Source: Ulota crispa (lineage: Eukaryota > Streptophyta > Bryopsida > Orthotrichales > Orthotrichaceae). Taken from it: 64,000 nucleotides of DNA. The translations under genes and the position numbers were made by a program. Shown here piece after piece: positions 5,411 through 50,038 of the stretch; within the stretch, counting starts at the first letter, position 1, and each line of letters opens with the position of its first letter. The notes beneath the pieces are model-generated. The model saw only the letters and a list, made by a program, of their open reading frames with translations. It was not told the DNA's origin and ran no database searches. Location of the stretch: assembly GCA_963920765.1 (NCBI GenBank), contig OY987246.1:6822501-6886500 (forward strand). Direction: 5' to 3'.

Positions 5411-5419
5411 GTTTTGAGA

Positions 5420-8889: not shown

Positions 8890-9201
8890 TTAATGACGCT
8901 CAGGCTCAGCACTAAATTTCTATTTTCCCAAATTCTATAACAAACAGCAGCAGAATGTTGGTCCGTGGAGCTTTACCGGGAGTGGTTGAACACAGAGGGA
9001 CATATGCCGGGCCCGCCCCTGAAAGACCTTGGCCCGAAAGTACAGTTGTTTGCAAATTCCCTCCAGAATTGAATGCAACTACCTGTGACTGGCTCTAGGG
9101 TCCTGAGATCAAGGCCCCTGCACTCACAGCCAATGCTCCGCCATTTAATATTACGGACAATGGTCGGAGGGGTCCTTGGACTTTAGTCTCTATTAAAACT
9201 T

Positions 9202-13674: not shown

Positions 13675-16600
13675 TCAGGACTGCTTAAGCTCCATTAGCT
13701 CCTCTTCTCCAATACCAAGAGCCAAAGGCAGCTTCACAGACGACGGCCCTTGAAACTTGAACCTGCACCAAATCCAAAGGTAGTAAGTAGGCCATTGTTT
13801 TCATCGAGGAAAAGATTTCATGCCAGCACTAGTCTATCTAAAATTCTGGGTTGTCTCCTTTTAGAATGCTGAAACCTAATCAGCAGCTGCAATTAATACA
13901 CCAGAAAGGTTGATTGGTGGACATGTTCGACATGTGAAAATAAAAAAATAAACAAACCAGATGGACGTTATTAATCCATCAAGTTTACTGCCTTGTGTTG
14001 GAGTTTTCACATGCACATGAATCCAACATTAGCATGAATGACATAACTGTCCCTCTACCACTTAGAATCTGATGTGAATGAGGATTCTTTCATGAACTCT
14101 GGCATACAAGAGAAGTCGAGTTACCTGCAATTGTAGCTGATAGGTGTATCTTCTGTATTGAATTCGGCAACTACACCTCCATGGGCTTTCACCATGGGAG
14201 CATACCCTGCAGCTGGCTGCAAATGAATATACCAAGAACTCAACCACATTAGTCACGTGTAATGGTACTAACTCCACACGTTTCTCCAACCAGTGATGAG
14301 AGACTGGCAGGATAGCTTGCCTTGGACAGGGCTGTGAATTAAGGCATTTTTGCTAGCCCTTTATAGTTGAATGTAACGATTAGAAGCACTATTATTAAAA
14401 AATAGAAGGTGGATGATCAGCAATAAAAACTCACCAATAGCAACCGTACAAAAGTATATGAGTTTCAAAATGCTTACATAGACCACAGCCGAAGTGCCAA
14501 TTACCAAGAGCAAGTCACAGTCTTGCAACGCATCATTGGTGCGATTCACTACGTCACCCTCCAGACACTCTCCAAACCAAACTACATGTGGACGCAGTAA
14601 GCCATTGCATTTCTTGCAACGAGGTAATTGCATGGATGGGACGTTAGCTTCGTGAATAGTATCTGGTGCGCCCTGAACAAGGCCCAGTACAACCCAACCA
14701 CAATACCAGCTGTTGGCTTCCATCATTTAAGGAAGAGTTGGACAGTAAAAACAATGACACACGAGCATATACATTTTTGAAAGAGCAGACCAGAAAAATG
14801 CTCATACATCATTCAGCAGTTACACGCAAAAGAACCGAAACATTATCAGGAGCCTACTTTCAAAGATCACGTTTCACATGATACATAATCTTAACAGAAC
14901 CCCGACCGAAAAAAAAATAGGACCAGGTCTTGTTTGGTTAACCTTGCACGCTATTCTACGCTCTATCGTTCCAATCATATCAGATGCATCCAAATAATCG
15001 AATGAAAAACATGTGCTAGGGCAAACATAACTATTTCCCTGGCTACACTAATAATTATGGATAACAGGACTCAAGAGATTAATTACAGATGAAAATAACC
15101 AGATGGTTTTTGCAATCTCATCGTTTTTCACCACCTTTGTAGCCTGGCAAATGATAAAAAAATCGGAACCCCGGGGCAAATGAATCGGAAATAGCAGAAT
15201 CAACTTGCTTAGTTAATGAGAAATCTTTCCCTTCCCATTAAAGGTAGGTAATCTGTCATCTTTCAGATCACTTGAGCAGTTAGAATGATGTGGTAGAGTC
15301 GTAAGTGCATAAATACCTTTCCATCAAGTGCTACACAGATCGGCATGTCCCTGTTTGCCTCCACTGTTTTGCAGTGACAACAACGGGTCTTCCACATGGA
15401 ACCATGAAGCTCAACCGCATCGGTGCTACCAGCTTTCATATGAAGCCCATCGATGTTCTGCGCCACAATAACACAAATAGATAAAAAAATAGTTCAGGTT
15501 CGGTATTAAACAGAAGAAGATTACTACCCATTTACCTCGGGTCATGGTTAACCCCTAAAAGTACCAAGGATTCAAACTTTGAAAATAACCAATTTGACTG
15601 GCCGTATTCTGTAAAACTTAATTTATATCCCTAAAAATCAGTGAAGAACATTGCATGTGTTGATCGATAAATATATAGAATTGAGCCCCAAGTGGCCTAC
15701 TTAAAATGCTAAAAAGGACATGATACCTAATTTGGACCTCTAGTAATTTAGAGGTTAAGACTCTAACAGGTAAGAGAACACGGCAAATGCAGACAACTGT
15801 CCAGATCAAACCATAAAGTCGAATGTGTGCATACCTGCAACCAAGGTTTTCACCTACAACAGCCCAATAGTTAGGGTTGAGATCTAGCCTCTGGAAGCAC
15901 TTATGAAGTCAAAGGGAGCACCTGCGTGAGAAGAATAAAGTCTTTGTTCTGCAAGCTACATCTCCTCTGCAGTGCAGCGATAGCGTAATGACCTGCGTTC
16001 GGTGAAGCTCCAGCAACAATTGTTCTGCAAGCCACTGAATGTCGCAATTGTATTTCCAAAACTTCTTACTGATGATTGTGAATCAAGACATGTCACAAAC
16101 TAAGAGAAGAAGGTGGACATTGAGCCACCACAAACAAAACCACCAGTGATTCCAGTAAAACAGCGATTTTACATCTCTGGAATCATTGCAAAAACACACG
16201 GAGAGATAATTAAGAATAGTAATAAATGTCAAGTTATCAACTAAGAACCTTCAAGTTATCTTCCATTTCAAGCATCCACCAAAGTAAAGCTGAGGTAAAG
16301 TTGCAAATCTAGCCTTAAGAGCAAGTATATTAACCACTCTATTCATTAACCATGGACCACTCCATTTAAAATCTGCTAATGAATACAACGGCCAATGTGA
16401 ACCGAAAACTAGAGATAGGGAAGGAATAGAGAGTACTATAAACACCTGCGATAGTGATAAAACTCCCATACTAGCGACGGATTTGCTGCGAAAGCACCTG
16501 GTGTAGCAAGTTCCTGCAAAGACGCATATGTGATTTTAACCCCTAAATGCCCAAGGCCTTTCTGAACTTCTTGGCATTTTCAGGAAAGTGAACAATCAAC

Positions 16601-18229
16601 CAACCTTTTCATAAATCTCATCAAGTTTTTTTAAATTGTACCCATATAAATTTAAACTTTACATGTTAGAGATTACATGGAAAAAGAAAACACAACAATA
16701 TCACTTATGGTTTGAAAGATTATAACGTTTGAACATGAGGGTGCTAAAATTGCAAAAGTGACTTGAAGTCTTTCAATCCTCATTTCACATGTCAAATCTA
16801 AAAAGTTGGTCATCAAAAAAATATGAGGTTTAAGGTCATTACATGTTTAACCTCAACCAATTTACGGCTTTCAAAATCTACTCTTGTATTTTTTTTTAAT
16901 GGATTTCTAATGCAGATTGTTCTCCAAGCTCTAGTGTATTTGAGGCTCATTTTCAAGATCTTCCAACACTAGAAAACTCAAGATTGCAGTGGACACTGTT
17001 GTACAAAATCTTAAATAGAAAAATTATAAACATTCATTTTCAAAATCAGATTTTTGGTACTGAAAATAGACTCCAAAGCAAACTTGTGTTCAAAAGAAAA
17101 TACCAAAAATAGTGATTTGATAAGATTTTGTTTGTCTTCAAAGTTTTGCAAACACCCAAATTGGGTGCCTTGGGCATTTAGGGGTTAAGTAATAAGCTGC
17201 TTCAGGTCACATGCGGACAAGAGTCACGCATAAGCACACAATTCTATGTGATGTAGAGATTGAGGAAATATGAAGCAGAAGATTAATTCTGAAACTTGAG
17301 GGAGTGCAGCACTTGGCATTCATTAATTCTGGTGTTTGGTCTCAGCAGAAGTTGATAATCAGATAGTTTCATTATTAGCCAGAAAAACGCAAAACACTTA
17401 CTGTTGCATCGAAGGCACGCCACAGGCCACCTTCTCCACGAAACGTTGGGATACCCGACTCGGCAGATATCCCTGCCCCCGACAACACAACAATTTTCTG
17501 CTTCAGGATCAAAATCTCCATATCAGAGACGTAATCAAAGATATAATACAAGGAAGTGAATACTCAAACCACTAGGGACCAAATCAAGTCTCCTGGTATC
17601 AACCACTACTCGTGAATTCATTTACCGAGTTGTACTTATTAGCAAGAAGAGTAAGTACGACTTGGCTGGATGTTTTTGGTTCCTCATCTTTGCAAAGAAC
17701 GGGATTTTCTGCTGTCACTTAGGGTGGTCTACAGCGTCCTACTTTTATACAGAAAAACTTCACACATAGTGGTAAAGATTTGACCTCAAACAGAATAGGC
17801 TTTTATACTCAAAGAGACCTCTCAATATCACGATACTGCTCTTCCAACAAAATCACACTACTAAGTATGTTGAAAGCCTAAAATGACGCAAGAGTAACCT
17901 TTACCTTACAAACGCACCTAACTACAAGGAAAACCTTAGAAATCCTTATTTGTCGTACCCTGCAGGTGACGGAAGTTTCTAAATAAAATGCACCAGCAGC
18001 AACAAGCAGTTTCATTCATAATTAATCATTACCTGCAGAGTCTTCTTGAATGTCGGAGTTTCTATAAATCGGAAGAAAAAAAATCATTAAACTCGATCTC
18101 GTCTAAAAACTGTGCAAATTCTACAAGGTACGTTCATTTCGTCACAAAGAAAGATACAAACAAAATCAGTTGAGAAATAACCTTGGCATTCCGAAGCACG
18201 GAGCTGAAATCCTCAATCGAGTCACTCAT
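13675..18229 (-). CDS. SIRT5-type (class III) NAD-dependent protein deacylase
   Basis: Eight exons: 18182-18229, 17402-17497, 16446-16513, 15922-16024, 15317-15457, 14478-14672, 14125-14216, 13675-13762. All seven introns are GT-AG and phases join exactly (831 nt, 276 residues). The start MSDSIEDF lies one short exon before the NAD loop. Visible motifs: [14 protein letters not shown] (23-36), WEFYHYRR (64-71) with the Y67/R70 pair equivalent to human SIRT5 Y102/R105, TQNIDGLH (104-111), catalytic H123 in ELHG, zinc cysteines C131, C134, C171, C174, [11 protein letters not shown] (177-187) and GTSAVVYPAA (211-220). The Tyr/Arg pair is the class III hallmark that favours malonyl, succinyl and glutaryl lysine, so demalonylase/desuccinylase activity is inferred. 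No mitochondrial presequence is evident, unlike human SIRT5, so a cytosolic or nuclear site is possible. Intron 2 carries a MITE. No broken exon was found, so it is probably functional. Confidence 0.93.
16540..17184. mobile_element. piggyBac-like TTAA MITE, family A copy 2, in sirtuin intron 2
   Basis: TTAA at 16536-16539 and 17185-17188. Ends CCCCTAAATGCCCAAGGC and inverse. It is nearly the same sequence as 8246-8889, inverted. It sits 27 bp upstream (in gene sense) of exon 3 and makes up most of the 888-bp intron 2 of the sirtuin gene without touching either splice site. Confidence 0.85.
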
Positions 18230-19993: not shown

Positions 19994-20982
19994 TTACTCT
20001 CACAAAATAATGTCGTCCGAGATGTATGTTGTTGGCTAATTGGTTGGAAACCTTAGATATGTGATAAGGTCATTAAAAACGAATCATGATATATTGTGAA
20101 AATAATATTTTTTTGATTTTGGTGATACAATTGTCATTACAAAAAAACAATTTTCTATGGGATTGTGCAATTGTAAATACATATTTTGAAACTATCTTCT
20201 GCAGCTACTTCTCACATGAATTTCGCTTATTCTCTTTCAAACTTAAATGAGGGATTCTAATTAGGTCTTCAGGTCTACTTGGTTATTGATGAAAACACAA
20301 ATTTTGAAAGCATACTAGAAGTACAAGTATCGCGTGTATGATTTGCTAAATAAATATTTTGTTGGTCATTCTACAAAAATATATTAGAAAGCTGCTTATC
20401 ATTTTAATACAAAATAACCCCTAAAAGATCAAGCCATTTTTTCTTTGAAAAACACAAAAAATTGTCACTTTTGAGGAAGCAAGTACAATGGTAATAATAT
20501 TTTTTTTTACAAGAATTCCACCGTAGGATCTTAGGTTAAAAAATCAGCTCAATTTACACAAAAATGAGTGAGATATTCACATCTGAATTGTGGAAAAATG
20601 TTTTGTTTACTACTACCCAAAAATTTCAGAAGGTTTTGACCACTCTTAGATCAAAAAATTACTCTACACAAAGTTGAGGTTTATTTTTCCCATGTAGGAG
20701 ACCAAATTAGGTATGTGTAGGAGAATTTTCAAATCAATTGGAACTATACAACACATGGAAAAAAATAGTAAGTAAAAAGAAGTAGAGAATGAGTCAAAAC
20801 ACTAAATTGTTAAGAATTTAATTATTAAAATGAAAAATGCAAATCCCAACGGTGATAATGTTGTGATAAATAATCTACATCCTTTGGTTTTGTTTTTTTT
20901 CCAAAATAATGAAAATTGAGTAAAATAAAGGACTTCAAAGTTTATTTTAGAGTAGAGAATCTAGAACTGCCCTATCACAGGA
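19994..20982. other. Intergenic with repeat fragments
   Basis: Contains a decayed TTAA-MITE terminus at about 20415 (ATAACCCCTAAAAGATCAAG) and the dispersed repeat at 20540-20745 shared with 4400-4620. No coding sequence recognised. Confidence 0.4.
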
Positions 20983-21250
20983 TGTGGTGTCGAGGGCCTC
21001 TCCGCACCGTGGTGTTTTTGTGTGGACATTCATCTAATGGATGAATGTCATCCGTTAGGGTTTGCTTGTGTGTATGTACTGCACACAAGCACTTGACTTG
21101 ACTGTCTTTGCCAAGTCAAGCCTTGTGAGTGAGTTTAGAGTTTTAGTGGATTGTCTTTGTTTGTAAGTGATGTGTTATCATTAATAAAGCCTTTTATTTC
21201 TTTACCATTTTGCACTTGTTGATTCCCCCTTGGTGGTGTGCAAGACGCTT
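20983..21250 (+). other. Possible LTR or retroelement leader fragment
   Basis: Starts TGTGGTGTCGAGGG, has a small hairpin (CATTCATCTAATGGATGAATG), the repeat CACAAGCACTTGACTTG, and AATAAA at 21183-21188 followed by a T-rich stretch. These resemble an LTR with polyadenylation signal, upstream of the DNMT-bearing element. I found no second copy at the 3' side near 35.3-35.8 kb, so this is speculative. Confidence 0.22.
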
Positions 21251-21429
21251 GACTTCTACCTACTCACTTGACAAGATCAGTTTGCTTCTAGTTGACATAC
21301 TCATGTTTACAGTTTTTGAGATTAGCGAGAGATTTATAATTTGTTAGTTGTTGAGGTGAGTTCTGTACTTGTGATTTGTATTTGTAAATGAATTCTAAGA
21401 GTAACAGAGCTGTATGAAGCTGTCCGAGA

Positions 21430-21973: not shown

Positions 21974-22567
21974 GGAGGTAGATTGTAAGGGCAATTTTAC
22001 TCGGATTTGAGTGAAATTTGTGCCTATACTTGAGCATTTTTGCCACTTAATCCAATTGTAGTGTTGGATTGGCATTTTGTCGCGTTATATCATCCACTTT
22101 GGCAATTTATATTGGGAGATTTGTATTTTGTAAACATTGTGACTAGAGTATTCTATTACCTCTTTAGTTTTAGACATTAGGAGAACACTTTTAATGTTTT
22201 CCTTTGCTTTGCAGATATTGCAATTTGGGGCTATTCATTACAGGCGTGTGCTAGTGGTGCTGACCCTTTCGATTTTTACTTTTATCTTGTTTGGGAAGAG
22301 GATCTAGTTTTGATTGTTAGATTTTGTTGATTGGGACCTTCCCAGTATGCGAACAATGTTCCGTTTTGTGTTGTTGGATGGTGGGTGTACCGTGGAGGTG
22401 ACGTCGGGTTGATTGCTGACAAGACTTTTTTGTATGTTTTGGACCTGTGTAACCCAGAATTTATCATCGATGGACCACATAGAATGATTGTGATTGCAGA
22501 TTAGGTTGCCCTTACCTTGTAGATAGTTGCAAGTACCCGATAGTTTGTTTATGGTGAGCACAAGGAG

Positions 22568-23563
22568 TTGATATTACTGCTCCCCTTCACCAGACTATCT
22601 GGAGGGTCCTTCTGTTTTAGATCTTGGGCCAAGATCGGATACCGACGAGGCTTTGAGCCTATTTCAATGTTAGATACCAATTGTAGGCTTTGGGTTTGGA
22701 CGGTTGGTATGTTTGACGACATAGAGGACGATCACTGCTATGTTGTGCAAAACTGTTTCTCAGGACAAGCTAGGGGCATCTCCCTACCCGATTGGACGCT
22801 TTGATTCCACACATGGATAAAGGAGAAGCGTTAGCAGACACCGTCGTTTAACGACTGGTATGCATTTGAGCTTCTGCTCTAGCATTTGGAGCTAGCGGCT
22901 TTTCAGACCTATGGGTCATAGACTGTACAATACGCAGAGTTGTTGCATCCAATAGAGGATTACTGGCGCAATCGGATGGAGGTGGTGATTGCTCTCAAAG
23001 AGAGTGTGGTTGGCCAAGTTTCTACTATTACTGATCAGCCCAAGACGGAAGAGGGAGCTTTCAATGGTGAGCGGCCTAGCATGGAGGTCATGTCACATTT
23101 GGCCCAAGCCACACAAGCGGTATTAGCGAAGGTTGGTCTTCCACATGCATTTGATCCTCTAGCACTTTTCTTGATGTATTTGGAAGGAGAGTACAAAGGA
23201 TTTCGACGGGATTAGATACAGCGCATCCAGAAATTCTGCCGTGAGAAGGAGGATACTTTTTGCACCATGTATACTCGATTGGCAAGGTTAGCAGCAGAGG
23301 CTAGAGATGTCTTCACGCAGCATCAGCTAGCACACATTTACGTGTCCAAATTGTATAAACGGATGGTAGATATACTTGACGTGCGTCTCCTCTTTCGCTA
23401 TCATGGCAACAAAACTTTGGCAGAAGTTTTTCCCGAGGTAGAAGAGCTAGACATGGTTCTTGGTGTGAGGGAGGTCACTATCTTAGCCACAACCATGATG
23501 GACACCCCTCAAGCCCAAGAAGCTTGCTACCGCAACTGGCAGCTTGGCAAAGGTACAACCTGA
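22568..23563 (+). pseudogene. gag-like region of the DNMT-bearing gypsy element
   Basis: One frame continues from about 22568 to 23563 broken by several stops. The best preserved parts are 22940-23215 (beginning around LLHPIEDYWRNRMEVV) and 23267-23563 (MYTRLARLAAEARDVFTQHQ), a helical, charged sequence of the kind expected for capsid protein. Assignment rests mainly on position directly before zinc knuckles. A frame change near 23560 leads into the nucleocapsid frame. Confidence 0.6.
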
Positions 23564-24941
23564 GAGGGTTATATATTGTTGAGCTTGTGGAGAAGCCGGC
23601 CATGCCAAAGGAGACCCAAAATGCTCTAAAAAGAAGGATGCACGTGCGACAAAGGCTAATCCCAAGACTGAGGCGTCTAAGTTTGAGGCACCAAAGTCTG
23701 GCAACAAAGCTAGGGACAAGGGCAAGAAGCATGTGGTATGTTTTCACTTTGGCAAATCTAACCATAGCAAGGAGAGGTGCTTTATTCTTCATCCAGATAA
23801 GCGCCCATGATCTTTCGCTGCCAGATCTACAGTTGTTGGATCAAATGAGGTGAAGGCATTTCAAGCCAAAATTGAGGAGCTTAAGAAGAAGATGAGCGCA
23901 ATGGCCTCTTTGGGGCAAGTGGCGGACACACGGGCTTCAGTGAGGAGCCATGGCTCATCCTTCGCCATGGATGCCTACTTGTATGGCTCCTCGGGGTGGA
24001 TTGTGGCAGGGGTTGCCACTCGCACTTAGACCACTGCTCAGACAGTGGTACCTTCTTCGACTCCTGCCAATAATGACGGACGTCAGCGACACATAGGCTT
24101 GCTAGATCACATTGCGCAGTCTTGGTTACCTCTATCTCTCAGCATTGCGGATGCAACTATTTCTAGTGTTACTCCTCCTTTGCCCTCTACTTCACAGAGT
24201 TCCCCCATTCAAGGGGATGCTGCTCATACTTTGGCGTACAAATAGTTGCAATTTCTTGTGTTTACTAGAGTGGACTTCATGACACAAGGTTTTCAACCAT
24301 CCAGTGTATTTGATTTGGCAGGGAGTATGTTGGAGGGCAAAGTGCCTATACCATCATTGGAGGTGTCGCAGGCAGTGACGGCTCCACCCACTAAAGAGGA
24401 TTTGTTGGCCATGATGGCCAAACTCGCAGCAAAGGCTATTTTTGCTTTTGAGGCCAACGCCCCTTTGGCATCTATTATACAGTCATCTGCAGTGGCTTAC
24501 TTAGCCAACATTGCGGCCCGTTCTGCCTTCGAAAGATGCAACTTGCATCCATAGGTGATACGTTTGGTGAATGACAACAGAGTTATGATGGTTGGTCGTA
24601 CTGATGGCAACTCTAGACAAGCCACTCCTTTGCGAGTTATGCTAAATTTTGGGGCTCAGCTAGTTATGATTGGCAAGCAGCTAGTCCAAGATTTGGATTT
24701 AGAAGCTATTGACCTTGAGCCTTGCCCCTTCATCATTGTCACATCAGTTGGGAGCACGGAAAAAGTTATGGGTTATACACAACATCTATTACAGTTGATG
24801 TTTGGTGTAGGATTGAGTCTATTGTTCTCCCAAGTATCTCTCTAGTACGCTATGACTGGTGCCACCAATTATGACATTTTGGTGGGCCAGCAAGCACTAT
24901 ATCCACTTGATTTTGGAGTGGATAACTAGACAGAGGAGGCA
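23562..24941 (+). pseudogene. Nucleocapsid zinc knuckles and retroviral-type protease
   Basis: In the frame shared with the methyltransferase, a first knuckle reads C-stop-A-C-GEAGHAKGDPKC and a second reads CFHFGKSNHSKERC, where phenylalanine stands at the expected second cysteine. A linker follows, then LRVMLNFGAQLVMIGKQL (about 24624-24680), which matches the aspartic protease active-site region but with N and F at the catalytic Asp and following Ser/Thr. The protease would therefore be dead. Stops at 24027, 24243, 24552, 24843 and two near 24925-24944 are all TAG. Confidence 0.75.
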
Positions 24942-25013
24942 TAGATTAGGTCAAAGTGGTCTGCTGGCAATGACAGCAAGGAGCTCATTCTTGTTACCTT
25001 TGTAGCTAGCGCA

Positions 25014-26099
25014 GTGACCTCAACAGCAGAGGCTATGTTTGGATGCACTACTTTGGCATCAGATTTGCCATGTGGTTTTATACTTTTGGATGAGACATAT
25101 GCATTTATGTCAACACCTAATGAGTCACGTGCGCATGCACCGATGGAGATCCTTGCACGCTATTGCAAGAATCCGTTTCCACCAAGGAGAACTCAACTGG
25201 AGCTTACTCATTATAGTAGAGAGATTGTGGATGCTTTTGATGCTCTTCAATTCCTTGTGGATTCTTCCACGCTATTGTTGGCATGCACTATCCAGTGGCA
25301 CCTATCAGACCATAGCATTACTCTTGTCGAGCTCTTTGCTGGCATTGGTACAGAATTGGCAACTATGTTAGTGGTTGGGGGCAATGTGCGGCAATACATC
25401 CATGTTGAAAGTGGCTTTGCAGCCTACCGTGTCGCTTGCCACTACATTCATTGTTTGTTGGCGTTGTATCCTGAGCAGCTTCTACATTGTGCTATCCATG
25501 GATGTTTTGGCAAGTTGCCACGGGATGCCACACTTATTAGGGATGATGATCTCAGGCGACTAGGTTACGTGGATCTGGTGATTGCCGGATGGCCTTGCCA
25601 AGATCATTCACAAGCTGGCAGCGGACATAGATTAGAGGATTTGCGGTCATCCTTCTTTGCAAATTTACTCAAGCTCATCCAATGGTGGATTATCCACCAA
25701 TCTCAGCCACCTGGGCACGCTTTTGAGAATGTACCTCCATTGGGTGACACACGAGTGAAGATGTATGAGGATGGTGCATACATCCATCACCTTCTTGGTC
25801 CTCCTACATTTGTCGATGCCACCGCATTGGGCTCATACGCCCATCGGCAACAATGGATTTGGACCAACTTGTCCTCTTTGGCGATACTTGCCTCTGCACT
25901 AGTTCAGGTGCAACGACCTATTCACTGCAAGGTTGATGATATTTTGGGTGATCATTGTATTTCCACAAAGGTCATCAAAGATGATGAGCCGGCGTTAGCC
26001 TTGGTGAATTGCATAGGCTTTCCTTGGGGAGCATTACCCACATTGATGTGTTATCCAACATCCTTTGCTTTTTGCTTAGGCGGTCCAAGCATGATTTGA
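25014..26099 (+). CDS. DNMT3-like cytosine-5 DNA methyltransferase domain in a retroelement polyprotein
   Basis: A single open frame (open from 24945) ends at TGA 26097-26099. Counting from 25014: motif I ELFAGIGT (106-113, S-adenosylmethionine site), motif IV AGWPCQDHS (191-199) with catalytic Cys195, motif VI ENV (238-240), and motif VIII-like SYAHRQQWIWTNL (274-286). The spacing VRQYIHVES after motif I and the AHRxxxxWxN form resemble DNMT3/DRM-type enzymes more than DNMT1 or bacterial enzymes. The target would be cytosine C5. Residues 1-100 are a linker following the protease. It lies in the same reading frame as nucleocapsid, protease and upstream RT, so it was made as part of one polyprotein. 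No stop interrupts it although neighbours on both sides are riddled with stops. Whether it is still expressed cannot be told from sequence. Confidence 0.9.
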   Translation: MTSTAEAMFGCTTLASDLPCGFILLDETYAFMSTPNESRAHAPMEILARYCKNPFPPRRTQLELTHYSREIVDAFDALQFLVDSSTLLLACTIQWHLSDHSITLVELFAGIGTELATMLVVGGNVRQYIHVESGFAAYRVACHYIHCLLALYPEQLLHCAIHGCFGKLPRDATLIRDDDLRRLGYVDLVIAGWPCQDHSQAGSGHRLEDLRSSFFANLLKLIQWWIIHQSQPPGHAFENVPPLGDTRVKMYEDGAYIHHLLGPPTFVDATALGSYAHRQQWIWTNLSSLAILASALVQVQRPIHCKVDDILGDHCISTKVIKDDEPALALVNCIGFPWGALPTLMCYPTSFAFCLGGPSMI

Positions 26100-26640
26100 G
26101 ATAGTACTTCCCACATTTATGACAAGTCTTCAGCCGACAAGCGAGAGCGGGCGATGGGCTTTTTGACTAGTACCACCGCCGCACCAAATCTTTCTGAGGG
26201 TCAGCGCTGTTTCTTGTTGGGTTAAGCTATTGACCTCAATATCCTTGTCTGGATTTCTGGCCTATGCTTTGCTATTTAGCGTCATCAACGTGACCATCCA
26301 CGTGTAATGGAGGCAAACTTTGATGGTTAGAGGGCATTGGTGCCACATCCCACCAAGGTTGAGGAAGCGGAGTTACTTTCTCATTTAGAGAGGCTTGCGT
26401 TAGAGGAACTTTGAGCTCAGTACATCTTTGTTGCTTTTGCCAAAGATTTCAGACAAGAGGCAGCCCAAGACTTATTTCTGCGAGTCCATCATCATGATAT
26501 GGGGTTTTTTATGGATCCCATAAATGAGGATTCTGGAGGCATGAGCTCCTTCTTTGCTACCAAGTAGCAATCATCGGCCGTGTTGGTATGTGGTGGTTCT
26601 TCAACGATGGAGAAGGAGACCACAAAGTTTGATGATTAGG
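26100..26640 (+). pseudogene. Linker between methyltransferase and reverse transcriptase
   Basis: The methyltransferase frame continues through this stretch with stops (TGA 26097, TAA at 26223, TAGs and TGA after), encoding charged and acidic segments but no domain I recognise. It links the methyltransferase to the RT N-terminus and shows that the domain is internal to the polyprotein rather than a neighbouring gene. Confidence 0.55.
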
Positions 26641-27640
26641 CTTTGAATTTAGGGCCACATCTCATCGATGCCAAAGCACAAAGGCTATAAGCGTCTATAC
26701 ATTTGTATTGCAGCTATTTTGCCTTTAGCCTCCATGATTTGGAGGGCTACAAGGACAAACCGATTCACATTCAATTGGAGGATGACCACTCTATCTTTTG
26801 ACAACTGTACAAGCTCAGTCTTTCAGAAAATGCTGGGGTTCAGATTCAATGTCAAGAGTTGTTGGCTGCTAGCTTGATTGAGCTCTCCAACGGCAAGTAT
26901 GCGTGTGCGACGGTTATGCCCTCGAAGAAGGACATCTTTGGCAACTAGATAGAGAAACGGATGGTGGGGATTATCGACCGGTCAATCGCAAGACCAAATC
27001 GGATCGGTACTCCATGCCCACGCCGGAGGAGTTATTTGATGTGGTGGGACATGCTAGAGTATTTAGTACTCTAGATTTGCGATCTAGTTATCACTAGTTA
27101 CCATTGATGGTGGATGACTGGGTGAAGACAACATTCTGGGGAGTTGATTAAGATAGAAGAGATCAGCTTTTTCATTGGAAGTTTCTTCCATTTGGACTCA
27201 AGAATGCACTCGCCGAGTTTCAAAGGGTGATGGACCGGATAGTGACCGGTCTTCCATTTATTCGGTATTACTTTGATGATGTTATCATCTTTAGTAGCAA
27301 CCCTCGGGAGCATGTGACGCATCTTCATGCAGTATTTGACACGTTACATCAATAGGGATTGCTTACACCATGGCAAGTGCAAGTGCTTCCATGACCGGTT
27401 ACCATATTTGGGGCACATGATTGTTCCAGGAGGTCTTAGTGTGCAGCAGGCCAAAGTGGATGCACTGCAGAAGATTCCAACCCCAATTGATGTGTTGCAG
27501 CTTTCAACTTTTTTTGGCTTGGCAAATTACTATCACCAATTTGTCACAAACTTTAGCTCAATTGCTAAGCCGTTGACTATTTTCACGGGGAAGGATCAAT
27601 CATGGACATGGGGACCAGAGCAACAGCAAGCCATTGCTAC
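26640..27640 (+). pseudogene. Ty3/gypsy reverse transcriptase, frameshifted
   Basis: The N-terminal part runs in the methyltransferase frame to about 26980; then frame 2 gives GDYRPVNRKTKSDRYSMPTP (from about 26960), STLDLRSSYH, FLPFGLKNALAEFQRVM and YYFDDVIIFS. The YxDD box (FDD) is intact. Near 27366 the frame changes again, giving LPYLGHMIVPGGLSVQQAKV and FFGLANYYHQFV, the gypsy RT/RNase H connection. Stops include TAG at 27095, TAA near 27148 and TAG near 27353. Not functional as it stands. Confidence 0.9.
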
Positions 27641-28125
27641 TTTGAAGTTGAAGTTTGGTTCAACGCTTGTACTTTGACGCCCAGATGCTACGCGGTCTTT
27701 CCATTTGCATACAAATTGGAGTGCTATAGGATTGGGAGCCATATTGACACAAAAAGATGAAGAAGGACATGAGTTTGTTGTGGTTTTTGCTTTTAGAAGC
27801 AACAATAACGCAAAGTCCAATTCTTCCTCCTATTAGGGAGAGGCTTTGGCGGTTCTTTGGGCCATTGCACACTTCTAGCCTTACTTGTATGGGCAACAAT
27901 TCACTTTAGTGATCAACCACCAGCCTTTGAAGTGGCTCATGGAGTCTGACAAGCTTATTGGCAAGCTTGCCAGGTGGGCTTTGTTGCTCCAAGAGTATGA
28001 TTTTGATATTGTACACCGAGCTGGCATCACGAATTTGGATGCAGATGGTCTTTCTCGCAATCCAAGTCCTTCAGAAGAAGATTTGACTAGTGTTAGGTGG
28101 CATGGGATTGTGACAAGGAGTTAGT
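27640..28125 (+). pseudogene. RNase H domain of the gypsy element
   Basis: Segments RPDATRSFHLHTNWSAIG, GAILTQKDEEGHEFVV, GEALAVLWAIAHF, QFTLVINHQPLKWLMES and HRAGITNLDADGLSRNP are typical of Ty3/gypsy RNase H. Stops at 27675, 27834 and 27879 break it. Asn replaces the expected first catalytic Asp (HTNWS). The frame then runs into a tether region cut by the insertion at 28212. Confidence 0.9.
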
Positions 28126-29310
28126 TCTGGGGTGACATGCAACCGCCTACCTCACTTTGATGTCTGGATCAACGGCATTGCTGCCATACCAGGCAGCCAA
28201 TGAAAAGCCAATGTAAGTGCTCGAACCTCCCCCTCAAGAAGTAAGCGCAAGCACAACCGAGTTCTAACAAAAACTGGAAAATGAGCTATAATAGCAAGAT
28301 GGTGGGTTTGGTTGTAGATTACCAACTAGAGATGCCTTTCAAGCAATGGATCTTTAGTAATGGTTATCCAACATATAATGATGAGCAAACGGAGTAACTT
28401 CCTAAAGAGACAAGTACTAGTTCTATATGGAATAACGGGAATGAGGAGCAAAAGTAATCATATCTTGTCGTGGGGCCCACATACCCTATAGCCTCATCGT
28501 TGATAGCCTCCATCTTCTCGGTGATTGGTTTGGAGGTGGCTGCTTCTCAATACTAACGAACAATCACAATGTACTAATGGGTTGTTGGAGATAAATCCAT
28601 TAGTGGCTTGGCTCACACACCAAATTTGTGACGAATAATCACAATGTTAGGTGCATGACTGGAAGGGAGTTTTAGGAATGACTTCCGCCTCCTCTTGATG
28701 GCTGTAATAGTGCTTGATGACGCCAATTGACTAATTAGCTTATCAACAACCAAAGTATGACGGGTTTGCTATCCCAAGGTGGCCACTATGACGCAATCAA
28801 CCAAACTTAAAGGCTAATTAATCGTGGTTCAAGATAACCTAGGGTGTACCAAATATTCTTTGAATAATTCCCAAGAGAGCCAAAAGTGTTAGGTGGGAAA
28901 ATTAAGGCTTTTTACCCCCTTATCTTTTAGCTAATTTTAGTTGGAGCTAGGGGCTACGGGCTTGGGCTCAATTGCCAAGGAGAGGGCCGGCTATAAGGCC
29001 CTAGAGGCAGCAAGGAGGCCCTGGAGGCAATGAGCAAAGCGCTGCTGGCTGAGGTACGGGTACTACTAGCGAAGTCCGGGTATTGGAGCGAGGAACACTC
29101 TGCGGCCATCTTTGCCAATTGGAGCGGCTGCGGTCTGAGTATGGGGAGCTCAAGGCTCTGGCTTGCTAGGCAGAGTTCAAGAATGCTAGATGCCTCATAG
29201 CAAGGAGCTCTTGGCTGAGTAAACTTTGAGGCTAGCTAGACCGAGAGAGGAGAGGATCAGAGGAATGTGGGGCTTAATGCTGTGTCTTGCTGACTAAGGC
29301 CAAAAGGTTG

Positions 29311-30260
29311 GGAGCTCACAATTGACTGATAGAATTTGAGGCTAAAGAGACTGAGGAGCTCACGATTGATTGAGAGAATTTGAGGCTAAAGGCTGGGAGC
29401 TCATGATTGACTGAGAGAATTTAAGGTTAGGGAGACTGAAGGGCTTGGGGCTGATTGATAGATTTTGAGGCTAGGAAGACTAAGCAGCTCACGACCAGAC
29501 TAATAGAATTTGAGGCTTAAAGGCTAGGAGCTCACAGCTAAGTGATAAAATTTGAGGCTAGAGAGATTGAGGAGCTCACGGCTGACTGAGACAATTTGAG
29601 GCTAGGGAGACTGAAGGGCTCAGGGCTGATTGATAGATTTTGAGGCTAAGGAGATTGAGTAGCTCACGGCCGGACTGATAGAATTTGAGGCGTAGAGGCT
29701 AGGAGCTCACAGCTAATTGATAGATTTTGAGGCTAGGAATTGGGAGCTTACGACCAACTGAGAGAATTCAAGGATAGAGGCTAAGAGCTCACAGCTGACT
29801 GGGAGAATTTGAGGCTAGGGAGACTGAGGAGCTCACGATTGGATTGATAGAATTTGAGGCTTGGGAGACTAAGGAGCTCACAATTGGATTGATAGAATTT
29901 GAGGCTTAGAGGTTGGGAGCTCATAACTGACTAAGAAAATTCAAGGCTAAAGGCTGGGAGCTCACGACTAACTGAGAGAATTCAAGGCTAGGGAGACTGA
30001 GGAGCTCACAGCTGACTGGGAGAATTCGAGGCTAGGGAGACTGAGGAGCTCACGACCGGACTGATAGAATTTGAGGCTTGGGAGACTGAGGAGCTCACGG
30101 CCGGACTGCTAGAATTTGAGGCTTAGAGGTTGGGAGCTCATAGCTGATTGAGAAAATTCAAGGCTAAAGGCTGGGAGCTCACGACTAATTGAGAGAATTC
30201 AAGGCTAGGGAGACTAAGGAGCTCATAGCTGGGCTAATAGAGTTCGAGGCTAGAGCTTGG
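29311..30260. repeat. 43-45 bp tandem repeat array, about 21 units
   Basis: Units begin with GAGCTCAC and continue with a variable GACTGA/GGACTGATAG, AGAATTTGAGGCT and GGGAGACTGAG. The 45-bp form equals 15 codons and reads ELTTGLIEFEAWETE, a heptad-like acidic sequence, but many units are 43 or 44 bp or contain stops. The array therefore looks like a decayed coding repeat for a coiled coil. Sequence just upstream (about 29005-29150: EALEAMSKALLAEV, LERLRSEYGELKAL) is also coiled-coil-like. Confidence 0.85.
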
Positions 30261-33200
30261 GGATGCGAGGGGCCCCACGGCTGGAAGCTTGATGGCCGGG
30301 GGGTGGTAGTTGATGATGCCACAAGTTGAAAGAATCTAGGAGCAAGGCTAGGCCTCTAGTTGCAAAAATCAGTGAGCAAGGTGGCTTCTCAGAGAGTTAC
30401 TGAGGAAATCAAGAGAGCTGGCCAATCGAGGCTGAACTGAAAGGATTATCAAAGAGCTACTGCGAGGGCTTGTAATGGTGTTGGAGTTCTAATAGCGACT
30501 GGTAAGCTAAGATTCTGGTAAGGGTTACTATTCTAACTACTACTCAACTTGAATGCAAATAGGACTTCTAAGAAGTGTGGAAGAGCGGCATCGCCAATTG
30601 TAATTCAACTTCCTAGGGGTTAGTATGACCAATACAAGAAAGGCTATGTTCTACTAAGTGTAAGGGAGAGGGCTCTATTAAAAGCAAGGGATAAGGGGGC
30701 TAGGAACTTGGCAAGACACAAGTGATGGCGGAAGTGAGTGATGGAAAGAGACCACAAGTGAAAGTAGCCAAGAGAGAGATCTAAAACAAGGAGAAGTGAT
30801 TTAAAACACAAGAAAATGGTTACAAGTGCAAAGATACCAAAGAACTATGAAGAAAGTGATCTAAACATGAAAAAGTAGTCCTAACAAGTGACAAGAGAGA
30901 TTGTTTTGAAAGGAGGTGGGCCTACCTTTATACTTTTGAAGGAGGACACCATAGCCCTCTATCTAGGAGATCCATAGATCCCTTGAAATCTATCTAAAAT
31001 CTAAGAAAAACTCAAAATGGAAGAAATCTAGATGAATTTGCCATAACTTTTGGAGCATAGCACCAAACGGCAAAGGGATGGTGGCATTGAATTCCTTGGA
31101 CCCAAAATAGCCGGTTTTGGTTGTTCACCTTTCTAATTCCAAATTACAGGGCATTGGGAATCTTGAATGAAGGGTTAGAAGTGGATGGATGAAAAACCCA
31201 GAATTGTGAATTTATCCAAAAATGAGAAATTGACTTCCCAAGGTCTTCTAATGTTGTCAAGGGAGCCAAGAAACAATCTTTGCTTCCATTGTTGGGTAGA
31301 GAAGAGCGCGTTTTAGGAATACGCGGGGTATTTGGCTGCGATTTAGTGTAGTTGAGCTTTTCAATCACAAGTTCCAAATAAGAGTTTAGAGAACACTTGC
31401 TCTCTATAATAGTTTCCAACTATTGCAAACTATCTATAAAATTTCTAAAGACAATATTCTCTCTAGAATGAGCACGGTTGTGTACTTCAAAGTCTAGATG
31501 GAAATTCTAGATGGAAATTCTAAATAAAAATTCTAGAGACAAAATTCTACAGACAATCTTGTCTCTAGAATAAATACAATCAATTACCAATTTGAAATGA
31601 AAATTCTAGAGATAATATTGTTTCTAGAATGGGCGCAGTTGTCTACTTCACCCAAGACCTCTAAAGCTCACTTCAAACTATACTACAATTAAAATTTGAA
31701 AGAAAACAAAGTGAGATTTTCTCTCCCTCTTAGGCAAACCATCCACTGTCCCTTTGAAGCTCTATAACTATTGTATTATAGCTTTAAAACAAAAATTTAA
31801 TAGCAATTGAGAAAGTTGACACTATCAAACACAACACATAAAAAATTCACTAAGAACTAAGACTCTGTCCAAAAATTATAGCCAATCAAAGTTTGGATAT
31901 CTAAATTGCAGAAGACACCTAACCTCTTAACTTATACAGATCATAACTCTCTCAAAAATCCTCTAAGTGACTTGAGTAATAACAATCTAAAAACTCAATT
32001 CAACAAACTATCACCTCTAAAATTTTCAAAAGATAATTCTATACATGTTAAAAGTCATGGCTCATCAAAGTTGAAGCATCCCTCTTGCAAAAAGACAGCC
32101 TTCCTTCCAATTTCAACTCAACACAACTTTCTCAGAAATCTTTCAAGTGATACAAGTAATAACAGTTTGAAAAGGCAATTTAACAAGCTATCATTTCTAA
32201 AATTTTCATAAGAAAGTATCAATCTAACCAGAAGATATGACTCTTCAAAGTTGTGGCCTCCCATTCATCAAAGACATGCAACCTCCAAGCCTTTGCACCT
32301 CGATATCTTCCTCTTCAAAGCTCCAAATCTCAAGTTTGATATTTTCCTAAAAAGCTTATATAATGATCTTCATTCTATCAAAATTTCATAACAAATTAAC
32401 ACGTCGTCTAGTTTCTATGGTTGATCAAAATCTCCACCCCTTCACATAGGAGGCAGCAGACCTTCCCCATTCAAACAAGCACAACTTTTGAATGCTAATT
32501 CCAAATCAAATAAGCATGAAATTTTTGGAAATCTCACACAAAGATACATGAGCTCAACAAATTTCACTTTAAATTTCATCATACACAATGAGTTATGACT
32601 CCTGCCACATTCGGGTCTCTAACCCCACTCTCCATTACACTCCAAAATTTTTAGAAACTTCCTAAGATGTTTTTTGCACATAGGTCAGCTCATACCCCTC
32701 TCACATAGGTGGCTCCTACTTCCATTGAACCTCCATAACTTACCCTTATCCTTATCTTGAGGTTATTTCACCTCAAATATTAGATTAAAGGCAAACTACT
32801 TTAGGATTTCTCCAAAAATACTTCCACCAAAGATAGCTACCTCATTTCCTTTCATATTTCCTAATAGAAAGAACAAAGATAAAACATTTACCATTATAAG
32901 GTGGCCACGCGCCCTCATAGGCATACAAAAATGTTGAAAGCTTATTTTCAGTCACTAAGCCGTGGACTTGGTTGGTTAGAGAAACGACGGTCTTTAGCCG
33001 CCACTTTTATCTCAATTCTTCGTTTATTGAAATCCAAACCAAAATAGATATTAAACGTATATCTACATGATGGAGGCATCTCCATCAGGACACCGCCAAT
33101 TAGGCTCCAATTGGATGATATTTTGAAAGTAGATGTCGCGCGCGTTCTAAAAATAAATAAAAATGTGGTTGTTCGAAGCCTTGCCGCTATCGAAATAACT

Positions 33201-33725
33201 TGAAATTTGGAGGATTGTCGTAAATCCTTGAAAAATTCTTCCATGAATTTTGGTGGCATTTTACTATTGTTTGTCAACTTCCTTTGACCGGAGTTGACTG
33301 ATAGCCTAGCAGAGTTAATTGCTTGGAATCACGCTTTCTGAAAAACGGAAGGTCTTGGAAGCCTTTGGTATAGACGCACCAAATTAGATAATAACTGAAA
33401 ACGTGAACTGATGACATGACCCTTGGCCATGGCTAAGCTAATCTACTCCTAAACTAACCCTCCTAATTAGATTAGTGGGAACTTCTGGTGGAGATCCCAA
33501 ATCCTAGTATGTGTGTCGCTCAAACTAACTAAAAACTACTAACTCTTACTAAATCACTCCTAATGACTTTGCAAATGGAGTAGGGTAAATGGCATACCGC
33601 TAACCATTTGGTTTAATTAATCTAAATTAATGTAAATGGCTATTCCACTTATATTAATATAATTTTAAAGCTAACTAAAACAAAAAATGAATGTAGGACT
33701 TCTAGTGCTGAATCTGGGATTCACA
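30261..33725. other. Remainder of the insertion, no gene recognised
   Basis: Contains a purine-rich stretch (30660-30910), a run of TCTAGA/TTCTAGA repeats (31430-31640) and long AT-rich DNA. Frames at 31144-31419, 31906-32211 and 32948-33277 have no recognisable domain. Confidence 0.45.
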
Positions 33726-33742
33726 GCCGGAGAAGGCTCAAG

Positions 33743-34515
33743 TTGTTAGTGATGTGTGGGAAGATATACCAGTCTTGTACAAGCTACAACATGGGGCACT
33801 TCTACCAGCTCTTTCAGTTATGAAGCGGGATCGAGTTGGACACTGAGTGGCCAAATTCCGTTGGGAGAATGGCCTTCTCTTTTGGTTGTGGCCAAATGGG
33901 ACTAGGCGTATAGTTTCTAGGCCAGATCAGAGGACTTTGTTGGTACGACACGTACACAAATACCTTAGACATTTTGGTGTATGACAGACTCATTCCATAT
34001 TGCGCAGCTAGTATTGGTGGATTGGCATGTGTCAGCAGATCGCCACATATGTTGTACAATGTGAAGTGTGTGATCGGATTAGATCCAGCTTCAACACTCT
34101 ATCACCGCAATTATAGCCTTTGCCCATCATGGAATTAGGCTACCGTTGGTCTTTGGATTTTGCCAAGCCACTTGTTGTTACACCATGAGGAGCCAAGTAC
34201 ATGTTGGTGATGGTGGAGCGCTTTAGCAAGTGGATTGAGTTTGTAGCACTACCGCAAAACTCTTTGGAGTTGGCGGCCATGGTATTCTTAGACCGAGTGT
34301 TGGCTCGATTTGGAGCCCCAGCTGAAGTGTTGACAGACTAGGAACGTGAGTATCTTGGGACTTTTGAGGCTTTGTGCACCAAAGCTTTGATTGATCACCG
34401 TACCACTTCTTGGGATCATTCGGAAGCAGACGAGTTGGCAGAGCGTGTGGTTCAAATAGTCAAGCGTGGCCTGTGAAAGTATGGATTACTTTAGGGCGGC
34501 CATTGTAACTGGGAC
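33743..34515 (+). pseudogene. Integrase zinc-binding domain and catalytic core of the DNMT-bearing element
   Basis: After DVWEDIPVLYKLQHGALL the HHCC domain is readable as RHVHKYLRHFGV followed by CEVCDRI. The core follows: YRWSLDFAKPLVV (first Asp), KYMLVMVERFSKWIEFVALP, DRVLARFGAPAEVLTD (second Asp) and AERVVQIVKRGL (catalytic Glu). At least six stops (for example in VGH-stop-VAKF, RS-stop-YWW, VTP-stop-GAKY, LTD-stop-ERE) interrupt it. Confidence 0.9.
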
Positions 34516-35226
34516 TTGATGATACTATGGATCGCTATGGGATACAAGTTTAGCAGAAAAGCTTCATTGGCTGCTTTCAGTCCATATCAGTTGTTATATG
34601 GACGTGAGCCAATTTTACCTAGTTCTCTAAGGAAGAAGTTAGCTCCAGTGGTGGATTTGGACAATCCAAAGATGTGGGCTCGTTGTTTACGTGACCAAGC
34701 AGAGTTCTTCAAACGGGCCATGCCAATGGCCATGGAGAATTTATCTATTACTCAGCACCATGACACATTGCGGTACGCACAAATTTGTAGCGGAGTCTAC
34801 CGGCCTCAACTACGACGTTTTACCACAAAAGATTATGTTTATCTTCAACGCGAGGCGCCCACAACATTGGATGTCAAGGCCGGGCGCACCATTCTTCATG
34901 TAAGGAATGTGTTGCCCAATGGTATCTTGTTGTTGGAAGGCAAAGACGGCAGGGAGTGTCGAGAGCACTCCAAGAATTGCGCCCCATGCCACTTACCTAT
35001 TAACGGCTCATTTCACCATGAGCTGGCCATTGTGCCTAAGGGCCTCCTATATTTTGTCTGTGATGAGAAGAAGGGTGCGACCACCATGTTATTATGTGAC
35101 TTTTGCCAACGTGGATGGCATATGGCTAGTTTGACTCCACATCTTTCTACACTACCATCTGGCGATTGGACTTGCCCTCGGTGTCATAGGTCTTCAAGTT
35201 CTGTTACACCTAGTGGAGCAACTTGA
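34516..35226 (+). CDS. Integrase C-terminal part with terminal PHD finger
   Basis: This 236-codon open frame is the end of the gypsy polyprotein. It starts within the integrase (FSPYQLLYGREPILPSSLRK), passes a basic region with YVYLQREAPTTLDV, and ends in a PHD finger: FVCDEKKGATTMLLCDFCQR, GWHMASLTPHL and WTCPRCHR (about residues 178-225). CDFC, GWH and CPRC keep the PHD pattern, but Tyr and Ser stand at two expected zinc cysteines, so folding may be compromised. PHD fingers read histone H3 tails; here it takes the place of the chromodomain in chromoviruses and could direct integration to particular chromatin (inference). The stop at 35224 is the natural polyprotein end. Confidence 0.85.
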   Translation: MMILWIAMGYKFSRKASLAAFSPYQLLYGREPILPSSLRKKLAPVVDLDNPKMWARCLRDQAEFFKRAMPMAMENLSITQHHDTLRYAQICSGVYRPQLRRFTTKDYVYLQREAPTTLDVKAGRTILHVRNVLPNGILLLEGKDGRECREHSKNCAPCHLPINGSFHHELAIVPKGLLYFVCDEKKGATTMLLCDFCQRGWHMASLTPHLSTLPSGDWTCPRCHRSSSSVTPSGAT

Positions 35227-35229
35227 ATT

Positions 35230-35866
35230 CCTCTTGCACTTGTTGTGGTATGGTGCTTTGCCATCCAACAGGAGTTCTTCATTCCGTTTCAAGGATAGAC
35301 ACACCGAAGATTGACCATGAGATTGACAACAAAAATGTCAAAGGCGATTAAGAATGGGGCTCATATTGCACCTCGCCTACCCTCTCTTAGTTACTTCTCC
35401 ATTCGTTTATTTATTCGGTCAAGGACCATTTCTTTAGCTGGATTGCTTGTAGAAACTTGTGTAATTTTTTATGCATTTTTTTGGACATCCTATCTTTTGT
35501 GTGTTAATAATGACATCAAATATAACACAAAGATGTTAGTTTTTATATATAAAAATTACATTAAGATGGTAACTTTAACATCAATTATAACATACAAAAA
35601 GTGGACGTCCAAAAAAATACGTTAAGAAAAACACGGGTTTCTACTAGTGGATGCATACACTTGTTGCAGCAGCATCACCGTGGCAATAGTCTTCTTGATG
35701 TTATGGGTTCCTAGCCGGATAGAGGGTCTTTTTATACCGCTAGGGAGGCACTTGAGGCTATATTGTACTTACTGATAGTTCAGTTTGTTTTTTGTTTTAT
35801 GGTAGGATTGTGACTCTCAATCTATTTTGTTTAGCAATCTTGCTTTATTTGATAGTCCGTAAATAA
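35230..35866. other. 3' flank of the DNMT-bearing element
   Basis: Expected to hold the polypurine tract and 3' LTR, but I could not match it to any sequence upstream of 22.5 kb. No coding region recognised. Confidence 0.35.
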
Positions 35867-49413: not shown

Positions 49414-50038
49414 TTACTCAAATATTGGAATAGCATATGTCACAAATATATCACCATTTTTGGTAGTTTGCATAAATACTTGAGCTTCGACACATATATG
49501 ATTAGACACATTTTGGCCGGAAAATTCTTCAAATCTAATCACTGGTTTATTTGTAGTAGGATTTTCAGGAAAAAAAGTAATACTACGATTTGCCCAATCA
49601 ATTTGGAGATTATATTTTTTAAGCCAAGAAAGTCTTAAAATCACAGGATTGGACGGAGAACAAATAATATTGTAAATTACATGGCTATTATAATTTTTTG
49701 CTACTATCTGTAAAAAAATTATCTTGTGGATAACATCACTAGAAGATAGCGGTCGTCCATCAATAACTTCAATGTGAACGGCTTTTGACTTTTGAACTAT
49801 AAGAATCTTATGCAGTTTCACAAATGATTTATCAAATAAAACATGCTAAGGCTCCAAAATCTATCAAAGCATGGACTTTAATATTTTTAGAACTTAAACA
49901 AACTAATATGATAAAACAAAAAGCGAGATTTGCAAATAATACAGGACCTAAAGATTTTGACGATGTTGTAGGATCCAATCGCACGGTTCCTATTGTGACT
50001 GAACTTTGTCGTTTTCCTGTTGAACGTTGATGCTCCAA
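49414..50038 (-). pseudogene. Aspartic protease region of chromovirus 1
   Basis: Two frames, 49832-50038 and 49414-49821, read ALIDFGALACFI and KLHKILIVQKSKAVHIEVID with ILRLSWLKKYNLQIDW, the pattern of a gypsy protease. Phe replaces the Ser/Thr after the catalytic Asp. The pieces are separated by a stop near 49822. Confidence 0.85.

Follow-up and report, generated by a model that had tools for sequence, protein, structure and literature searches.

Does a land plant harbor retrotransposons that carry a DNA methyltransferase of their own, and in which of the element's proteins would such an enzyme be made? This question is raised by a stretch of 64,000 nucleotides of the Ulota crispa genome (assembly GCA_963920765.1, contig OY987246.1, forward-strand positions 6,822,501 to 6,886,500; hereafter the window), in which a first-pass annotation had described a gypsy retrotransposon with a DNMT3-like cytosine methyltransferase between protease and reverse transcriptase (RT), internal to one polyprotein. 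Homology and profile comparisons bear out the first part of this description. By homology, the window holds a decayed Ty3/gypsy long terminal repeat (LTR) retrotransposon with a 5' LTR from position 20973 and coding remains from 22551 to 35226, and the Ty3/gypsy domain order of protease, RT, RNase H and integrase is found among the domains of a relative with open reading frames (ORFs), in the window by homology, and in further copies of the host genome. The second part of the description does not hold, because a stop codon closes the Gag-protease-methyltransferase frame before RT in that relative and in 18 of 19 host-genome copies.

Two open reading frames in a relative of the window element

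A profile of integrase-PHD proteins (A2) was scanned against bacterial and archaeal genomes and returned three contigs, L001, L002 and L003, which are apparently eukaryote contamination of those genomes. L001 (CADCWO010000201.1, 9285 nt) is a contig in a soil-crust metagenome-assembled genome (MAG), probably as plant contamination, and the window aligns with it at 77.5% identity over 6562 nt when a nested insertion of about 5.5 kb is set aside. The first 127 nt of L001 recur at the contig end, a repeat that would be expected if the assembler had closed an LTR element on a single LTR. One frame of L001 (3-3491) encodes part of Gag with the zinc knuckles, the protease and the methyltransferase, the rest of Gag lying at the other contig end. 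A second frame (3492-6635) begins immediately behind a single TAG and codes for RT, RNase H, integrase and a PHD finger. Because the in-frame UAG ends the first frame downstream of the methyltransferase, the enzyme would be separate from the RT polyprotein and made with Gag. These sequences indicate that the plan of the element is almost certainly ORF1 with Gag, protease and methyltransferase, an in-frame UAG, and ORF2 with RT, RNase H, integrase and PHD finger. The zinc knuckles (23574 and 23733), the protease (24633) and the early RT, which had been annotated as sharing one frame with the methyltransferase, do lie in that frame in the window, but it is broken by many stops and indels.

Chance resemblance is excluded, because 13 homologues of the methyltransferase, 46-70% identical, come from several sequence sources and because L001 aligns over the length given above. 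It should be noted, as a point against this plan, that L001 is the sole DNA copy with open ORFs among those compared, that it is metagenomic and that its host is inferred. Scans of viral contigs and a first scan of genome contigs found no relative.

A stop codon in a plant-virus readthrough context

The junction of the two frames reads AAG TAG CAA TCA in L001, and the same letters stand at window positions 26562-26573; the UAG CAA UCA itself, a tobamovirus-type readthrough context at the ORF1/ORF2 border, lies at 26565-26573 of the forward strand and is identical at L001 3489-3497. Among 996 TAG triplets on the forward strand of the window, this is the sole one followed by CARYYA, and among the 34 in-frame stops of the window copy in aligned codons, the junction TAG, which is shared with L001, is the only one in that context. 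According to PMC2754532, readthrough in tobacco mosaic virus (TMV) has CAR YYA behind the UAG as an essential requirement, and TMV and beet necrotic yellow vein virus (BNYVV) are given as CAA UYA with in planta readthrough of 32% and 11%, respectively.

The junction was then compared among copies of the host genome. Twenty-eight element loci (16 + 12) were reduced to 19 distinct copies, the window copy (L035) included: L039 repeats L028, L040 repeats L017, and L038 and L042 pair with L037 and L041, respectively, whose junctions they share; the junction was unread in L016, L022, L023, L026 and L031, and for L043 the reading was displaced by one base from the tblastn frame. The junction codon is TAG in 16 copies, TAA in two and CAA in one; it is followed by CAA in 19/19 and then by YYA in 18/19, and the full UAG-CARYYA motif is present in 15/19. 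Two families contribute to these counts. In family A, near the window copy, all six copies read TAG CAA TCA. In family B, whose methyltransferases mostly share 45-56% identity with that of L001, the second codon is CCA in 10 of 13 copies and the flanking codons are others, so that the stop context is common to the two families despite differing flanking codons. Across the codons of the methyltransferase, its tail and RT-RNase H in family A, the junction stop occurs in 6/6 copies, and any other stop position in at most 4/6.

Several observations count against readthrough. Other stops recur in up to 8/15 copies of family B, and recurrence alone is for this reason weaker evidence there; three of the 19 junctions have another codon in place of UAG (UAA twice, CAA once) and one lacks YYA; C>T decay on its own can produce CTA or TTA from CCA; and the RNA 3' of the UAG has a modest folding advantage over shuffled sequence, with z -2.3 in L001 and a weaker z -1.5 in the window. 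Among 110 methyltransferase proteins from the searches, 36 reach motif X and nine of these 36 end in a tail like that of L001 (GGM.AL.AT[KQ]). A crude motif scan for RT gave two matches, both to the methyltransferase's own YVDDIL stretch, and no Pfam RT domain was found in them; full-length methyltransferase-RT fusions would be invisible here, because the protein search took only a set length range. Taken together, the sequence comparisons make it very likely that the UAG is leaky and that ORF2 is expressed by stop readthrough.

Identity and ancestry of the methyltransferase

The open frame at 24945-26099 had been read as a cytosine methyltransferase from its motifs (FAGIGT, PCQ, ENV and AHRxxxxWxN). 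It contains FAGIGT, WPCQ, FENV and AHRxxWIWTNL, and it was confirmed as such an enzyme by PF00145 (E 1.7e-8); the domain as a whole extends from 25290 to 26268 on the forward strand. A search with the window domain returned 21 homologues at E <= 1e-3: 13 from the same family (46-70% identity) and eight distant ones (32-35%). In a profile search against PDB sequences DNMT3A and DNMT3B came first (81 bits for DNMT3A), followed by 4onj (43), HaeIII (38), DRM2 (33) and HhaI (31), and no DNMT1 was found among the 52 sequences at E <= 0.01. The entry 4onj, listed as 'DNA methyltransferase', is one that we take to be a plant DRM. An AlphaFold model of the L001 domain reached a predicted local distance difference test (pLDDT) score of 85, and in a Foldseek search with this model all 50 listed matches of 1117 were DNMT3 structures; an earlier model built from mixed full-length rows was poor (pLDDT 38). 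The motifs follow the unrearranged order I-IV-VI-VIII-X, and the host DRM gene L005 instead has VI ahead of I. By profile and predicted fold the domain is thus of the DNMT3 type, and on the profiles together with Foldseek a DRM-type or bacterial-type enzyme was rejected as the closest class.

The host genome has exon-split DNMT3 genes (L009, L010) and rearranged DRM genes (L005, L008) of its own, all four identified by reading and L009 and L005 tested as well, which lends some initial appeal to a host methyltransferase gene hit by a retroelement insertion, or to an assembly chimera. Such an origin is scarcely credible, and was rejected, since the same domain order is repeated in L001 and across the fetched host-genome copies; the genome has about 90 methyltransferase places, and in a small tree the element enzymes do not fall within the host DNMT3 or DRM sequences. 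In that tree the host DNMT3, DRM and human DNMT3A sequences stand together, and the element methyltransferases fall outside them, beside three bacterial rows (95/94), without a supported group of their own (52/32). An intron-bearing host gene, which would have told against the first-pass annotation as the nearest relative, exists but is not nearest in this tree. The tree comprises 13 short rows, includes five of the ten intended element rows, and has bacterial rows that were picked as nearest matches; because its rows are few and short and the bacterial ones preselected, it was taken to say only that recent capture from the host is unlikely, and recent capture of a host DNMT3 is accordingly rejected with moderate weight.

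A bacterial origin of the methyltransferase was also considered, given a protein (P0003) named for 'Candidatus Obscuribacterales', and was set aside as plant contamination; this public record labels an element-type methyltransferase as a Candidatus Obscuribacterales protein and probably stems from plant DNA that ended up in a MAG. A larger tree was built from the methyltransferase only, with 56 of 112 rows (at least 170 aa of the domain); there the window takes a long branch (0.4) and joins L001 and P0001 in a starred ten-member group, and the Marchantia protein P0163 lies in the other half.

The catalytic Cys is kept in 16/16 decayed copies and the Glu of ENV in 12/16, in copies chosen by PF00145 matches, which lean on that motif. 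With that reservation, this conservation speaks against the idea that the domain serves Gag structurally or by binding nucleic acid, or that it methylates RNA, without a role in DNA methylation, and so does the best profile match, which is DNMT3 and not DNMT2. The idea draws on the place of the domain in ORF1, where it adjoins zinc knuckles and protease, and on RNA methylation having been raised for the LINE class in the available part of PMC5890265; we regard it as quite improbable.

Copies across the host genome

The L001 methyltransferase was searched against the host genome (274.8 Mb, 157 contigs), and 115 matches were resolved to at least 89-93 places, with identity reaching 60% or higher at 12-13 of these; these counts are lower bounds, 113 of 159 candidates having been scored. 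Every listed match has at least one stop. PF00145 marked 46 places, of which 31 were looked at, the window counted, and 15 were left aside. Twenty loci fetched at PF00145 matches comprised 16 element copies and four loci without element domains. RT-RNase H was recognized in all 16 copies, protease in 15, integrase in 14 and the PHD finger in 14; in L015 and L031 the stretch examined stops before the integrase. Direct LTR pairs were recognized in five of the 16, 84-90% identical and 9.4-9.6 kb apart, and copies with LTRs of this divergence are old; the window shows a 5' LTR only.

Three observations on individual loci were made in passing. L016 is a divergent copy (47% identical to L001 in the methyltransferase, 57% in RT, 60% in integrase) and perhaps represents a third family. 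L037 and L038 (C3:32.75 and 32.77 Mb, about 20 kb apart) are an opposite-strand pair of methyltransferase matches with the same score and stop counts, as are L041 and L042 (C4:9.40 and 9.41 Mb, about 11 kb apart). The two pairs are either recent inverted duplications or assembly artefacts.

Decay and past selection

The window copy is dead and, as its sequence reads, can make no product now. Its 34 in-frame stops in codons aligned with L001, one of them shared, are accompanied by short indels and by changes of the protease catalytic Asp, two PHD zinc ligands and several residues of the methyltransferase motifs. From L001 to the window, C>T changes affect 228 of 749 CG (30%), 179 of 660 CHG (27%) and 348 of 2173 CHH sites (16%); in the reverse direction, from window to L001, the counts are 37/354, 34/359 and 206/2323 (9-11% at all three). 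Of the 33 stops left when the shared TAG is set aside, 25 can be explained by C>T or G>A changes alone. This pattern resembles the footprint of plant-type methylation at CG and CHG; taken with the host's own methyltransferase genes and the liverwort relatives, it suggests a land plant, probably a bryophyte, as host.

Ratios of nonsynonymous to synonymous divergence (Ka/Ks) between L001 and the window are 0.20 for the methyltransferase, 0.14 for the PHD finger, 0.16 for protease, 0.15 for RT-RNase H, 0.10 for integrase, 0.22 for Gag, 0.28 for the linker and 0.24 for the methyltransferase tail. True constraint was presumably stronger than these values suggest, because some of the divergence postdates the death of the window copy. 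The methyltransferase value lies above those of RT-RNase H and integrase, which counts against the explanation proposed below.

The PHD finger and integrase-PHD relatives

The PHD finger that had been annotated in the same element is confirmed by PF00628 (E 6.8e-8) at 35050-35196 of the forward strand, after the integrase; the ORF at 34495-35226 comprises the integrase C-terminus and this finger. In L001 all eight zinc ligands are kept, and by residue comparison two of the eight are lost in the window copy. Matches to the L001 finger include CHD4, PHF12, UHRF1, KDM5 and ATXR5 among many PHD readers, and because so many different readers match, its ligand is not fixed by the comparison.

Relatives of the integrase C-terminus and PHD finger occur in the liverworts Marchantia polymorpha (P0037, P0045, P0048) and Calypogeia fissa (P0046, P0047), at 54-58% identity among the 120 of 252 matches listed. 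These proteins are annotated as hypothetical, and ORF1 and ORF2 are known there from separate records, not from one DNA stretch. For ORF1, Marchantia P0163 shows a zinc knuckle, a protease motif and a methyltransferase by reading, the methyltransferase also by Pfam, and is 40% identical to P0001. The gene model P0045 (MARPO_0060s0038) joins integrase-PHD to an apparent broken piece of methyltransferase and is likely two element fragments annotated as one gene. L002 and L003, from MAGs named Halorubrum and Mollicutes, are integrase-PHD gypsy pieces, 46-48% identical, whose sequences suggest that the join of integrase and PHD finger predates the element family of the window; no methyltransferase lies in the parts covered, but they say nothing on its presence, because L003 is cut about 165 residues before its RT match and L002 lies downstream of RT.

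A proposed working of the element

As a whole, the data are best explained, with a probability that we judge somewhat better than even, by a fossil of a land-plant Ty3/gypsy element with a Gag-side methyltransferase, a readthrough stop, methylation of complementary DNA (cDNA) in the particle and a PHD-guided integrase. Most ribosomes would stop at the UAG, so that the methyltransferase would be made in Gag amounts, and a minority would read through it to give RT and integrase. The protease would free the methyltransferase inside the particle, where the enzyme would methylate double-stranded cDNA before or during nuclear entry, and the PHD finger would guide the integrase to a state of the H3 tail. 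A cDNA that is methylated on arrival might be taken for self or protected against attack on its cytosines, the cost being silencing after insertion; the window copy itself would have been silenced by CG and CHG methylation, as its decay suggests, and then have decayed.

That cDNA methylation is the main job of the enzyme we put forward tentatively, as somewhat less likely than not: retrotransposon methyltransferases of another lineage carry out de novo CG methylation, according to the part of PMC5890265 available. A point on the other side is that this role is derived from the position of the methyltransferase and from that 2018 paper. The enzyme might act instead on host chromatin or on rival elements, for example by making methylated sites for entry of the PHD-integrase, and for this the nuclear de novo class to which DNMT3-type folds belong and the histone-reader type of finger on the same element can be cited. 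The methyltransferase, however, is encoded in the Gag ORF, ahead of the stop and separate from integrase and PHD finger, and this position suggests a role in the particle; action on host chromatin or rival elements is rather unlikely. We return to the particle, and to a bolder version of the proposal: the element would belong to a self-silencing land-plant lineage, in which a de novo methyltransferase packed in Gag amounts methylates cDNA before integration, insertion is PHD-targeted, and copies arrive already marked as silent. We hold this version to be speculative and doubtful; if it were true, a self-silencing strategy would persist by sparing the host.

Layout of the window copy and other features of the window

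The remaining parts of the window copy, all on the forward strand unless stated, were delimited mainly by homology to L001. The 5' part of the 5' LTR lies at 20973-21253 (blastn of 21026-21253 to L001 7159-7390, 79%), its start being set by comparison, the window having TATCACAGG where L001 has TGTCACGGG. Gag remains, homologous to L001 ORF1, extend from the ATG at 22551, placed by the same comparison, to 24632 in several frames with stops and include zinc knuckles at about 23574 and 23733. Protease remains, with NFGA for the DSGA of L001, lie at 24633-24974; the L001 protease matches PF13650 at E 7.8e-4, under the Pfam cut-off, and precomputed Pfam annotation gives the same domain for P0143 and P0144. 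Remains of RT and RNase H (26568-28170; RVT_1 and RT_RNaseH in L001 ORF2) are followed by a nested later insertion of about 5.5 kb with approximate limits 28180-33710, strand unassigned, which is absent from L001; within it, at 29200-30250, is a degenerate array built from roughly 44-base units (GAATTTGAGGCTAGGGAGACTGAGGAGCTCACG). Integrase remains (zinc-binding and core parts) lie at 33727-35049, with 80% nucleotide identity to L001 5136-6825, where Integrase_H2C2 and rve are recognized. The 3' untranslated region (35227-35847) was aligned by blastn to L001 up to 6825 and at 6839-7047, its homology stopping just short of the place of the 3' LTR, and no 3' LTR was recognized in the window by blastn with L001. 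Compared with the extent first annotated, 22568-35226, the element starts earlier, at the LTR and the Gag ATG given above, and 3' homology runs on to 35847. Rfam at gathering scores and a tRNA scan gave no match.

Elsewhere in the window, an exon of a Sir2-family (sirtuin) gene lies at 14361-14726 on the reverse strand (PF02146, E 1.5e-14); its wording resembles what we take to be the SIRT5 class. Two retroviral-protease-like ORFs on the reverse strand belong to other gypsy remnants: one, at 49414-49845, matches RVP_2 (E 4.8e-5), and one, at 62045-62461, was named by eye and has no Pfam match. Long inverted repeats at 8242-8893 and 16536-17188, about 8 kb apart, are 94-96% complementary and have weaker relatives at 43.9, 53.9 and 57 kb, and a long hairpin at 7627-8112 has arms of 239 nt, 90% complementary, with 8 nt between.

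Comparison with known systems

Retrotransposons with cytosine methyltransferases are a kind already known from Klebsormidium and Symbiodinium, and the earlier suggestion that the window element belongs with, or is sister to, the type described by de Mendoza et al. 2018 (PMC5890265) is supported. Literature searches that covered open-licence PubMed Central papers, judged by their listings, returned no description of such elements in land plants, and the papers listed for the Marchantia gene names did not contain those names; the portions available of PMC5784723, where Marchantia methyltransferases are listed as MET, CMT and DRM, without DNMT3, and of PMC8616336 describe no such element. With the present element, the range of retrotransposon-borne DNA methyltransferases, until now one charophyte alga and dinoflagellates, very probably comes to include a land plant, whose genome has at least 89-93 methyltransferase places; relatives of the element occur in liverworts. 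The element differs from the known ones in that its methyltransferase belongs to the Gag ORF and precedes a type I stop, in the PHD finger on the integrase, in the ordinary LTRs and in host range. This arrangement predicts that the methyltransferase would be a particle component in excess over RT, and it is relevant to the question of why an element should bring along the very enzyme that silences it.

The closest known system is KnitGypsy-Dnmt3 of Klebsormidium nitens (PMC5890265), which is likewise a Ty3/gypsy element with an intronless, unrearranged DNMT3-like domain in a streptophyte host, and which is reported to be under purifying selection (Ka/Ks <0.2; here 0.20, for L001 against a decayed copy). 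These shared features would fit the inheritance by land plants of the Klebsormidium lineage with the same layout, so that only the host range would be new. This is possible, if doubtful, since the paper places the methyltransferase in the Pol polyprotein ORF, gives a DIRS-like repeat arrangement in a figure legend and does not mention a PHD finger in its main text. The element of the window and L001 is set apart by description: it has ordinary direct LTRs, an integrase-linked PHD finger and a methyltransferase that ends before the stop in the Gag-protease ORF and not within a Pol ORF, with the UAG before RT in L001 and a stop in 18/19 host-genome copies. No Klebsormidium sequence was named among the listed matches of the methyltransferase and integrase-PHD protein searches.

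SymbioDIRS-Dnmt3 and SymbioLINE-Dnmt of Symbiodinium, from the same partial source, are also retrotransposons with cytosine methyltransferases, but the former is a DIRS element with tyrosine recombinase and the latter a LINE, and neither is gypsy. For the junction, the nearest parallels are TMV, with the plant-virus type I motif UAG-CAR-YYA (PMC2754532, available text), and gag-stop-pol retroelements such as Tca2 (PMC2194720, likewise in part), each with a single in-frame stop before the polymerase. Unlike TMV and Tca2, the element of the window and L001 has a methyltransferase upstream of that stop, on the Gag side.

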